Of a stretch of 64,000 nucleotides of DNA, positions 14,286 through 49,428 are shown one piece after another (position 1 is the first letter of the stretch; each line of letters begins with the position of its first letter). A program made the translations under genes and the position numbers. The notes under the pieces were generated by a model, which saw only the letters and a list, made by a program, of their open reading frames with translations, was not told the DNA's origin and did no database searches. This stretch comes from Dugong dugon (taxonomy: Eukaryota > Chordata > Mammalia > Sirenia > Dugongidae). The stretch spans positions 5,068,001 through 5,132,000 of the forward strand of contig CM057474.1 in NCBI GenBank assembly GCA_030035585.1, written 5' to 3'.

Positions 14286-15140
14286 GAATTAAAAGAGTTA
14301 AATCCATAAATAAAAATCACTTCTTACAGAGAGCCTAAAATTTGTGTCTCTGCCAGAAAAGTGATTCTTGAAAGGAAGCACCATCCCAATAGAGTTGTTT
14401 ATTAAAGGATCAGTCGGGAATACTTTCTGGCTTAGTCTTCAAGGTCCTCAACTTTAGATTCTGGCTACCTCCAAATGAAGTTACAGTATTTAATGTTTAA
14501 AACACACAGCACTTTTGCAATGCTTCCTTTTTAAAAAAAATGTACCAGGAATCGCAAAAATGCAAACTTTCCTAGTTTCTGAAAGATTCTGAAATGAACA
14601 GTTAAAGACCACCACCACCATCAAAGGAATGGAAAACTTCAAGGCTTAATCCACCTTCATGCTGAGTAACAGTGTATCCTTCCAGCTCTGTGATCAGTTT
14701 TATTTGGCACCATGCTTTAGAGCCCTCTTTGGGAGATGCTGTATTTCTAATTTGAGATATTTCATGTGTAGTACCATTTCTGCAGGATGGCATTTCCAGA
14801 AACGTGGTAACGTCTGTATGGTTAGAAACCCACAAGAAGCATAGTGGGAGGACTGACATTTGATGTCTCTGATGAGGCTCCTCAAAGACCCATTTTCCCC
14901 CTAGGCTGAGTTTCTTAGAAAGTTAGTATCAAGGTCCTTTCTTGGCTCAAGAAGCAGAAAAATACATGCATAATTTGTTCTTAAATATATTGCCATATTC
15001 AATAAATTCTTAGTAATTTTCTCATGCGGTATCCAGAAAGAAATACTATTAGAATAATTTGGGTATATAGTTGGATATATTAAGAGACAAAATAATAAAT
15101 AAAATAGGTATTGGGTATATAAAGAAACAACTTCAGTGCT
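14286..15140. other. Unassigned intronic sequence
   Basis: No repeat or gene recognised. Overlapping short frames at 14600-14890 on both strands have no recognisable features. Confidence 0.5.
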
Positions 15141-15153
15141 GTTCAAACCTCAT

Positions 15154-15399
15154 TTTAATTCCTTCAGTATGAGGAGTATTTGGGGGTGCATTAGCTTTTG
15201 TAGGCTTTTGCACATTATCCCACATCTGAAAGGTTCTGGGTTAAACTCCTTGTTCTGCAAATTGTTTTGTGAATAATGGTAAGCTAGCATTATTGATTTA
15301 TCACTCTTTTCGACAAATCATATTCAATTCTTCTTACACACACACACACACAGCCAAATTCTCATTTTCCACATCACTTTCAAAGGTCTTCTGCTGAGT
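15154..15399 (-). other. STMN2: Probable counterpart of STMN2 cryptic exon 2a (TDP-43-repressed)
   Basis: In human neurons lacking nuclear TDP-43, STMN2 exon 1 splices to a cryptic, prematurely polyadenylated exon 2a about 5 kb into intron 1, which abolishes the full-length protein. Here, 5.3 kb past the exon 1 donor on the same strand, the sequence shows in order: a TTGCAAG acceptor-like site (15404..15398 region); GCAGAAGACCTT; GAGAATTTGGCT; an uninterrupted (TG)8T tract at 15352..15336, the sequence type TDP-43 binds; AAGAAGAATTGAAT; GATAAATCAATAATGC with AGCTTAC just after; and ATACTGAAGGAATTAAAA carrying an ATTAAA hexamer at 15159..15154. These blocks match the human exon in the same order by memory. 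Whether it is ever spliced in this species is unknown. Confidence 0.75.
15336..15352 (-). repeat. (TG)8T microsatellite, candidate TDP-43 binding tract
   Basis: Minus-strand transcript would contain eight uninterrupted UG units. TDP-43 binds UG repeats. The tract sits inside the cryptic-exon counterpart at the place where human has a GUGUG-rich cluster. Confidence 0.85.
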
Positions 15400-15639
15400 C
15401 TTGCAATATGAATATATTTTTAAAAACCCAATTAACGAAGTGTAATGGCACAGAACACATCAATCCCAGAAGAACAAAACCCCTGAGTATATAAGTTTGA
15501 AAATGAAATAGTTGGTAAAGATTGACATGGAATTAAAAATGGTAAGACACAATGCTAGATCTTATTATCAGGGGTACACGCATATTACAATTTTCTATTT
15601 CTATACTTGATGGGTTTGGTGGTTAGCAGAAGCATCACA

Positions 15640-20702: not shown

Positions 20703-20721
20703 CCATTGCTGTTTTAGCCAT
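20703..20721 (-). CDS. STMN2: STMN2 (stathmin-2/SCG10) first coding exon
   Basis: STMN2 is a neuron-specific stathmin-family phosphoprotein that binds tubulin dimers, regulates microtubule dynamics in growth cones and supports axon growth and regeneration. Seen here: on the minus strand the 19 coding bases read ATG GCT AAA ACA GCA ATG G, giving MAKTAM plus the first base of the next codon, followed at once by a GTAAGG donor (20702..20697). MAKTAM is the known amino terminus of STMN2, and a phase-1 break fits the known continuation AYKEKMKEL in exon 2. The start has a strong Kozak context (A at -3, G at +4). The 5'UTR sequence around it also matches human STMN2 as I remember it. Exon 2 (palmitoylated Golgi-targeting segment) and the stathmin-like domain lie beyond the left edge of the window. 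The RE1 at 22360 supports the call independently. Confidence 0.93.
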
Positions 20722-28371: not shown

Positions 28372-28402
<31 letters not shown>

Positions 28403-29189: not shown

Positions 29190-30288
29190 CTAGCCAAAAA
29201 GCAAAGATGTCACCTTGAAGACTAAGGTGCACCTGGCTCAAGCCATGGTGTTTTCAGCCGCCTCAAATGCATGCTAATGCTGGACAGCAAATAAGGAAGA
29301 CTGTCTTAGGTTGGGTTCTCTAGAGAAGTAAAACCAGTAAAACATATAAATATATGTATATATATAGAGATTTATAGCAAGGAAACAGCTCACACGATTG
29401 TAGAGGTTAGAACGTCCCAAGTCCATGCATCAGGGTAGAGGCCTCTCCTAAGTTACGCAGCTGCAGAAGCTGGTGAGCCCAAGATTGGCAGGTCAGAGAG
29501 CAGGGCTGCCACTCACTGGCTGTGAAGGTTCACAAATTCCAAGATCGGCAGGCGAGACCACAAGGTTTCTCCTGATTCGCGTAGCTGCAGGGGCCGGCAA
29601 ACCCAAGATCAACAGGTCAGAGAGTAGGGCTCCGCTCACAGGCTGTGAAGACTGAGGAATCCCAAGTTCAGCAGATAAGCTGACAGCTCAAGTCCCAAGA
29701 ACTGGAGATGAGACGACAGGAGGCAGCTGCAGGATCCAGGGTGAGCAAAAAGCCACAACATCTGCTTATATTCAGATGCAGGCCACACCCCCAAGGAAAC
29801 TCCCTTTCATCTGATTGGCTACTCACGATATATTCAATCATGGACGTGATCATATTTAAACACGGAGAATCATGGCCCGGGCAAGCTGACACACAATCTT
29901 AACCATCACAAAGACTGAAGAAGAATTGATGCCTTTGAGTTATGGTGTTGGCAAAGAACACCATATTGAATATACAATGGACTGCCAAAAGAACAAACAA
30001 ACCTGTCTTGGAAGATGTACAGCTAGAATGCTTCTTAGAAGCAAGGATGGCGAGACTTCGTCTCACATACTTTGGACATGTTATTAGGAGATCCAATCCC
30101 TGGAGAAGGACATCATGCTTGGTAGAGGGTCCGCAAAAGAGAGGAAGACCCTCAACAAGACGGATTGACACAGTGGCTGCAACAATGGGCTGAAGCACAA
30201 CAATGATTGTGAGGATGGCTCAGGACCAGGCAGTGTTTTGCTCTGTTGTACATAGTGTTGCTATGAGTCGGAACCGACTTGAAGGCCT

Positions 30289-30325
<37 letters not shown>
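29190..30325 (+). mobile_element. RTE-type LINE 3' portion, split by an LTR
   Basis: Pieces 29190-29301 (AGCAAAGATGTCACCTTGAA, CATGGTGTTTTCAGCCGCCT) and 29911-30325 (GACTGCCAAAAGAACAAAC, ACTTTGGACATGTTATTAGG, TATGAGTCGGAACCGACTTG). The second ends in an (AAC)n tail (30289-30325), typical of RTE 3' termini. No intact frame. Confidence 0.92.
29302..29910 (-). mobile_element. Solo LTR, ERVL/MLT2-like, nested in RTE
   Basis: A 609-bp element bounded by TGTCTTAGG and CCATCACA with perfect 5-bp duplication AAGAC (29297-29301 and 29911-29915). Read on the minus strand it begins TGTGATGGTTAA, as in MLT2 LTRs. It contains three internal direct repeats of the CCCAAGAT(C/T)GGCAGG(T/C) type. Confidence 0.9.
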
Positions 30326-30327
<2 letters not shown>

Positions 30328-36425: not shown

Positions 36426-36652
36426 TTTCCTTCTTTTTTTTGTATTTTTTAAGGGATGGGTCATCAACAAATAATACATGCGAGCTTCTCGGAAAGCATG
36501 AGTCAAACCAGGATGCAGTATGTTGAACTGCTAAATAGTTTACCTTTACTGGCAAGGAAAATTAAGGTAGGTGGGCTGAGATTGGAACAGTGTGTGACTA
36601 CTACATGAAAATGAGACAAAAGTAGAGTTTTTTAGGTGCTCATAAGGCTGCC

Positions 36653-36890
36653 TGGGAGCCCTGGTTGGCTGGGAGCCCTGGTTGGCTGGGAGCCCTGGTG
36701 GCATAGCGGTTAAGTGCTTGTCCGCCAACCGAAAGGTCAGCTATTCAAACCCACCAGCCACTCTGTGGGAGAAAGATTCGGCAGTCTGTCTCCATAAAGA
36801 TTTACAGCCTTTGAAACCCTATGGGGTAGTTCTACTCTGTCCTACAGGGTCAGTATGAGTTGGAATCGACTCAGTGGCAGTGGGTTTGTG
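36653..36890 (+). repeat. AfroSINE (long form) with triplicated head
   Basis: The first 17 bases of the SINE (TGGGAGCCCTGGTTGGC) occur at 36653-36669 and again at 36670-36686, followed by the true head TGGGAGCCCTGGTGGC at 36687. The remainder is a typical long-form AfroSINE. Confidence 0.93.
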
Positions 36891-47640: not shown

Positions 47641-47784
47641 GTGAGGCAATTTTCAGACAATAGGAAAAAAAAAAAAAAAAAAAGCAACCACCACCACCAC
47701 CATTTATATAGCATTTACATGATTCCAGGCTATTCTCAGTGTCTTGCGTTTATTACCTCATGTAATAGAAATTCAAGCCTCAAG

Positions 47785-49428
47785 TTGCAACATTGAAGAA
47801 TTCTACAGGGAGAATACTGAACGATACAGGAAACATCAAAAGAAGATGGAAGGAATACCCAGAGTCACAGTACCAAAAAGAACTGGTCGACGTTCAGCCA
47901 TTTCAGGATGTAGCATATGATCAAGAACCAATGGTACTGAAGGAAGAGGTCCAAGCTGCACTGAAGGCTTTGGTGAAAAACAAGTTTCCAGGAATGGATG
48001 GAATACCAACTGAGATGTTTCAACAAACGGATGCAGCGCTGAAAGTGCTCATGTGTCTATGCCAAGAAATTTGGAAGACAGCTACCTGGCCAACCTACTG
48101 GAAGAAATCCATATTTGTACCCATTCCAAAGAAAGATGATCCAACAATACAGGAATTATTGACCAATATCATAAGTATCACACACAAGTAAAATTTTGCT
48201 GAAGATCGTTCAAAAGAGGCTGCAGCAATACGTCAACAGTGAACTGCCAGAAATTCAAACTGGCTTCAGAAGACAACATGGAACAAGGGATATCATTGCT
48301 GATGTCAGATGGATCATGGCTGAAAGCAGAGACTACCAGAAAGATGTTTACCTGTGTTTTATTGACTATGCAAAGGCTTTCGACTGTGTGGGTCGTAACA
48401 AATTACAGATAGCCTTGCGAAGAATGGGAATTACAGAACACTTAATTGTTCTCATTTGGAACCTGTACATAGACCAAGAGGCAGTCGTTCAAACAGAATA
48501 AAGGGTACTGTGTAGTTTAAAGTCAGTAAAGGTGTGCGTTGGGATTGTATCCTTTCACCATACTTATTCAATTTGCATGCTGAACAAATAGTCCGAGAAG
48601 CTGGACTATACGAAGAACATGGCATCAGGATTGGCGGAAGATTCATTAACAATCTGTGATATGCAGATGACACAACCTTGCTTGCTGAAAGTGAGGAGCA
48701 CTTGAAGCACTTACTGATGAAGATCGACGATCACAGCCTTCAGTATGGATTACATGCAATAAAAATAATCACAGCTGGACCAATAAGCAACATCATGATA
48801 AATGAAGAAAAGACTGAAATCGTCAAGGATTTCCTTTTACTTGGATTCACAATCAACTCCCATGGAAGCCACAGTCGAGAAATCAAATGACCATTGCATT
48901 GGGCAAATCTTCTGCAGAAGATCTCTTTAAAGTGTTATAAAGCAAAGACGTCACTTTAAGGACTAAGGTGCACCTGACCCAAGCCATGGTGTTTTCAATT
49001 GCCTAGTATGCGTGCGAAAGCTGGACAATGAATAAGGAAGACCGAAGAAGAATTGATGCCTTTGAATTATGGTGTTGGTGAGGAATACTGAATATACCAT
49101 TGAGTTCCAGAAGAAGAAACAAATCTGTCTTGGAAGAAGTACAGCCAGGATGCTCATTAAAAGTGAGGATGGTGAAACTTTGTCTTACAAACTTTGGACT
49201 TATTATCAGGAGGGATTAGTCTGGAGAAGGATATCATGCTTGGTAGAGTAGACGGTCAGCAAAAAAGAGGAAGACCCTCAAAGAGATGAATTGGCACAGT
49301 GGCTGCAACAATGGGCTCAAGCATAACAATGATTGTGAGGACGGCTCAGGACCGGGCAGTGTTTTGCTCTTTTGTACGTAGGGTCGCTGTGAGTCGAACT
49401 GACTCGACGGCACCTAACAACAACGACA
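47785..49428 (+). mobile_element. RTE-type LINE, reverse-transcriptase and 3' region (decayed)
   Basis: Frame 47793-48191 encodes the pre-RT block (VKNKFPGMDGIPTEMF, TYWKKSIFVPIPKKDDP). Frame 48196-48501 encodes TGFRRQHGTRDI and CFIDYAKAFDCVGRNKL. YADD follows at 48659-48670, directly after an in-frame TGA. The 3' end carries GTCGAACTGACTCGACGGCA and CCTAACAACAACGAC. It is the longest RTE copy here and is inactive. Confidence 0.94.

Follow-up and report, generated by a model that had tools for sequence, protein, structure and literature searches.

An orthologue of the human STMN2 cryptic exon 2a in a probably afrotherian genome: UG tract, early stops and ATTAAA retained, acceptor apparently different

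Exon 2a of human STMN2 is an ALS drug target, and a reading made from the letters of the window, i.e., the whole stretch of 64,000 nucleotides analysed here, had proposed that a counterpart of this cryptic exon is recognisable in a non-primate genome. The locus raises the question whether the resemblance is due to common descent and, if so, which parts of the exon are old and whether an acceptor is among them. The following features of the window, listed in the direction of STMN2 transcription, are needed for the argument.

20703 to 20721, minus strand: STMN2 exon 1 coding start ATGGCTAAAACAGCAATGG, then donor gtaagg; ATG at 20721, last exonic base 20703 (read directly)
15399 to 15404, minus strand: place of the human acceptor; the human ..AG/GACTCGG (junction assumed) reads ..AA/GACTCAG here (window letters read directly)
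15390 to 15398, minus strand: substitute acceptors ctcag/CAG (first exonic base 15393) and agcag/AAG (15390), from acceptor scoring
15352 to 15400, minus strand: 5' block, 41 of 49 bases identical to the published letters of human exon 2a, its orthologue
15336 to 15352, minus strand: pure UG tract (UG)8U, candidate TDP-43 site, at the place of the interrupted GU-rich motif of human
15272 to 15336, minus strand: middle block, collinear with human exon 2a (letters assumed), 28 of 31 bases identical in 15302-15272
15172 to 15271, minus strand: spacer of 100 bases from the middle block to the poly(A) block; the assumed human exon has 10
15153 to 15171, minus strand: block CATACTGAAGGAATTAAAA containing the poly(A) signal ATTAAA (15159-15154), 17 of 19 bases identical to the assumed human block
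15112 to 15152, minus strand: sequence after ATTAAA, presumed cleavage region, with T/GT-rich GTTGTTTCTTT at 15131-15121 (read directly)

For the identification of the locus, the human STMN2 protein was used as query and gave nine matches in all. Two of them correspond to exons 4 (97%) and 3 (92%) of STMN2, downstream of exon 1 on its contig and strand, and therefore the window represents the STMN2 locus. The remaining seven of the nine are distributed over three further contigs and resemble other stathmin genes, presumably paralogues. The spacing of 5.3 kb between the exon 1 donor and the segment given in the sequence-only reading proved accurate (5,304 bases, 20703 to 15399), and we take the human distance from exon 1 to exon 2a to be about equal.

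The comparison with human could be based on published letters for the 5' half of the exon. A primer printed in PMC10441763 and a NanoString probe from PMC9310392 were joined to a human exon 2a query of 102 nt. On both strands of the window its best alignment was 15400-15337 with a score of 70, followed by a TG/GA repeat with a score of 42, while the maxima from shuffled sequences were 31 (100 shuffles, 10.7 kb) and 29 (200 shuffles, 700 bases). In blastn, the published human letters matched 15400-15336 with an E-value of 1.6e-11 in 84 kb, corresponding to 3.0e-7 when scaled to a genome of 3.16 Gb; the second match was again a TG/GA repeat (E 8.8e-4 in 84 kb). The human exon is partly of low complexity and the runner-up in the window is a repeat of exactly this kind, which would speak for a chance resemblance or a wrong intron position. 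Against this, the non-repetitive first 49 bases alone reached an E-value of 1.7e-9 in 84 kb (2.1e-5 scaled to the genome) and two more blocks follow in order, so that we consider such an explanation practically negligible; chance was rejected on the shuffles as well as on blastn. An origin from a repeat was also rejected, since the segment is single-copy in its own genome (one match, itself). A pattern of 24 letters intended for the copies of other mammals gave no matches among viral contigs.

The seven blocks listed in the sequence-only reading were all recovered in the stated order between 15394 and 15153 of the minus strand. Some of the blocks which it had listed as human are, however, the window's own letters: the published human sequence reads AAGAATTTGGCT, and the human counterparts of other listed blocks are presumably AAGAAGAAATGAAT and GAAGAAATTAAAA. 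The orthology itself stood up to the alignment with human letters, as a significant collinear match was obtained in the same intron and at the same position. At the level of sequence comparison, the assignment of window 15400-15153 (minus strand) as the orthologue of human STMN2 cryptic exon 2a thus holds.

For the 3' half of human exon 2a we used assumed and not published letters, and the matches described here depend on that assumption. We take the human exon to comprise 227 bases counted from GACTCGG, or 228 with the first G of the primer. Positions 15314-15272 align in order with the assumed 3' half (blastn E 4.4e-7 in 84 kb, 0.010 scaled to the genome). The poly(A) block alone yields an E-value of 0.17; elsewhere in 31.8 kb of intron, no place agrees at more than 14 of 19 bases. 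The difference in spacer length may equally be due to an insertion here or to a deletion in the human line.

Of the elements by which the human exon is recognised, a GU-rich tract is located at the corresponding place. Within the 20.7 kb of intron 1 that the window covers, the (UG)8U tract at 15352-15336 is the only pure (TG) tract of at least six units on the sense strand. The 40-mer around it is the richest in TG/GT over 40.7 kb downstream of exon 1 (21, the next reaching 19). The tract is presumably bindable by TDP-43, and the simpler TDP-43 site that had been announced for this genome can be retained as a candidate site: a pure UG tract here versus an interrupted motif in human. The tract might alternatively be a young microsatellite with an origin separate from the human GU-rich motif, in which case the flanks would be ancestral and the TDP-43 site would not. 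Its purity, as young tracts tend to have, is in line with this idea, as is the GA/CA stretch which follows the interrupted motif in human and is absent here. In both species, however, the GU-rich sequence lies between the same two matching blocks, for which common origin and subsequent turnover is the simpler account, and we regard a separate origin as possible but doubtful. A longer pure (TG)14 tract is present upstream of STMN2 exon 1 (28372-28399, minus strand).

Translation from exon 1 runs into in-frame stops after 9, 10 or 12 residues with the three candidate acceptors tried, and the premature poly(A) signal ATTAAA is present with a T/GT-rich stretch downstream, whose role in cleavage is presumptive. 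Poly(A) hexamers are frequent in this intron (24 ATTAAA and 30 AATAAA), and it is therefore the homology and not the motif that argues for the poly(A) signal.

The acceptor appears to differ. In the human junction assumed here (..TTGCAG/GACTCGG, with 20 flanking bases likewise assumed), an AG directly precedes GACTCGG. The window letters at this place are ..TTGCAAGACTCAGCAG, with AA directly before GACTC, so that on the assumed junction AA stands where human has the AG of the acceptor. Acceptors were scored with an approximate, rounded frequency table instead of MaxEnt, and ranks refer to the 2,198 AGs of intron 1. On this scale the AAG one base further on, with 15399 as first exonic base, scores -4.22 (rank 1267). 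The best acceptor nearby is ctcag/CAG (15393) with -0.21 (rank 648), and agcag/AAG (15390) reaches -1.00 (rank 761). The true acceptor of STMN2 exon 3 scores 6.56. For the human site a value of 4.53 was calculated on the assumed flank, which 178 of the 2,198 AGs of this intron attain.

The published primer GGACTCGG could also be compatible with an exon that starts at ACTCGG behind an AAG acceptor, its leading GG then being derived from exon 1. If the human exon starts there, the window's acceptor would be the same as the human one. Words spanning the human junction were not found in the text of PMC10766724, PMC13228445, PMC11948778, PMC12697360, PMC8891019, PMC9310392 and PMC12225689.

At 15395 the window carries an A where human has a G (CTCAG for CTCGG), and this difference creates a CAG acceptor six bases past the AAG. 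The human base is part of a CpG, and CpG decay may have made the substitute acceptor.

The acceptor deserves particular weight. According to the summary of Baughn et al. in PMC10336091, TDP-43 acts by steric hindrance at the 3' acceptor, and it is this acceptor, and not the poly(A) signal, that gives rise to cryptic splicing. If, following this summary, the acceptor drives inclusion, the most important element is the one that is not kept. The proposal of a pre-formed cryptic exon can accordingly be upheld only in part: the (UG)8 tract, ATTAAA and the in-frame stops shortly after exon 1 agree with it, whereas the AG at the assumed human place reads AA and the substitutes are weak. Provided that the assumed human junction is right, a pre-formed exon is contradicted at the acceptor.

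It is nevertheless conceivable that a working TDP-43-repressed cryptic terminal exon exists in Afrotheria, with exon 1 spliced to 15393 or 15399 in the absence of TDP-43 and the RNA ending after ATTAAA. In favour of this are the retained early stops, UG tract and ATTAAA; splicing to the acceptors 15393 and 15399 would yield peptides of 10 and 12 residues (MAKTAMAEDL and MAKTAMDSAEDL, each followed by a stop). Splicing does at times make use of weak acceptors such as AAG, and the human acceptor itself is not strong (4.53 on the assumed flank). The best local acceptor, however, ranks only 648th of 2,198, and the assumed place of the human AG is occupied by AA, which makes a working exon rather unlikely.

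A physiological role, either as a regulated short STMN2 RNA or as another intronic element, might also have kept the sequence in placental mammals. Identity within the blocks, which is 84% with the published letters and reaches 90% with the assumed ones, would be in favour of such a role; Afrotheria and primates were separated about 100 million years ago. Between the blocks, though, the two species differ greatly in length, and the acceptor was not kept. Furthermore, the RNA fold is no better than that of shuffled sequences (z -0.65, with 51 of 200 shuffles equally good) and the window contains no Rfam match at gathering score, so that a structured RNA was rejected. With moderate identity, differing lengths (100 versus 10, the latter in the assumed human exon) and ordinary RNA structure, selection for function finds no support here, and we judge this explanation very unlikely.

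The age of the sequence depends on the host lineage. Using an approximate AfroSINE consensus, blastn gave 13 matches in the window at E<=1e-3, some of them in one element, and none with three shuffles. All 13 lie within consensus positions 188-368, i.e., in the 3' part only; for its tRNA-like head the window gave no match. The pattern of the AfroSINE tail occurred once with one mismatch, while shuffles expect zero. AfroSINEs are specific for Afrotheria according to PMC11292518. Because of these AfroSINE-like remnants, recognised by an approximate consensus whose tRNA-like head is missing here, the host is probably an afrotherian. Afrotheria and the group containing the primates belong to different principal lineages of the placentals (PMC9223172), and with a probably afrotherian host the sequence would therefore have been present in their common ancestor. 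The suggestion that it predates the primates is thus supported by the orthology together with the probable lineage of the genome.

The statement that exon 2a is absent from mouse agrees with PMC10336091, PMC12697360, PMC8891019 and PMC11948778, which describe it as unconserved there. Poor conservation beyond primates is given for such cryptic exons in PMC12289307, a view that is qualified by the match described here. Within the titles and abstract openings of the literature searched, no report of exon 2a outside primates was found. Public genome alignments probably already contain the match, which limits the surprise.

Several further repeats were observed in the window. An AfroSINE-like tail (30210-30304) merges with 12.7 perfect copies of AAC in tandem (30289-30326), together 30210-30326 on the plus strand. 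At 48175-48501 (plus strand), within about 47769-48890, a degraded reverse transcriptase of a retrotransposon was recognised (Pfam RVT_1, E 6.8e-9), which we take to be RTE-like. It is surrounded by broken open frames, and some 450-850 bases beyond it a further AfroSINE-like tail is found (49336-49428). A 17-base unit forms a perfect tandem array of 2.8 copies at 36652-36699.

Taken together, we consider it probable that the segment is an exon 2a orthologue derived from the placental ancestor, which keeps the UG tract, the stops and ATTAAA, lacks an AG at the human position and is silent or only weakly used without TDP-43. The alignments and letters described above establish its orthology and position as well as the UG tract, the stops and ATTAAA in this species, for which all findings come from one assembly. 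According to this proposal, an intronic stretch whose UG tract can be bound by TDP-43 and whose terminator is usable, yet which has no good acceptor, would have been inherited from the common ancestor of placentals. The exon would be skipped or rarely used, with or without TDP-43; we infer this from the fact that only AAG or CTCAG/CAG is available, behind a poor pyrimidine tract. Weak use of CTCAG/CAG upon loss of TDP-43 is the next likely state after a silent proto-exon. The main switch from inert intron to disease-prone exon would be the single A/G difference at the acceptor, which could have been gained toward human or lost toward the present species.

Such a segment may be a mostly neutral proto-exon, one base away from the human state. 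An identity of 84% in the ungapped block, combined with large length differences, could be about what an unconstrained intron retains, and TDP-43 cryptic exons as a class are conserved no better than matched intron according to PMC5446763. A more far-reaching version, which we put forward as speculative and improbable, would be that UG tract, stop and poly(A) signal were assembled in the placental ancestor and have been guarded by TDP-43 since, with one or two acceptor bases toggling the susceptibility to STMN2 loss among mammals and CTCAG/CAG being used in Afrotheria.

What this comparison adds is the age of the parts, with the acceptor as the point of difference. If the parts are indeed as old as the placentals, the disease exon was completed or uncovered by a small change at the acceptor and is not an invention of the primates. 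Non-primates could then carry the exon, and a screen among them for natural models or naturally resistant species would be possible.

The segment resembles human STMN2 exon 2a in being homologous and located in the same gene and intron, with a GU-rich tract at the same place, an early in-frame stop and ATTAAA. It differs in the acceptor, where the AG of the assumed human place reads AA, in a UG tract that is pure and shorter, in the missing GA/CA stretch and in 90 extra bases before the poly(A) block (relative to the assumed human exon). Moreover, human exon 2a is a case of TDP-43-repressed cryptic splice-polyadenylation, whereas inclusion of the present segment is hypothetical.

A further TDP-43-repressed cryptic exon in a neuronal gene is that of UNC13A, for which PMC8891019 gives conservation in primates only, based on a UCSC alignment of 30 mammals including 27 primates. 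Unlike this exon, the STMN2 sequence reaches into a probably afrotherian genome. With the class of TDP-43 cryptic exons described in PMC5446763, the segment shares UG repeats as TDP-43 sites, here a candidate one, and a low conservation similar to that of random intron. The members of that class have demonstrated inclusion and splice sites near the strength of those of neighbouring exons, whereas the acceptor read from the sequence here is weak.
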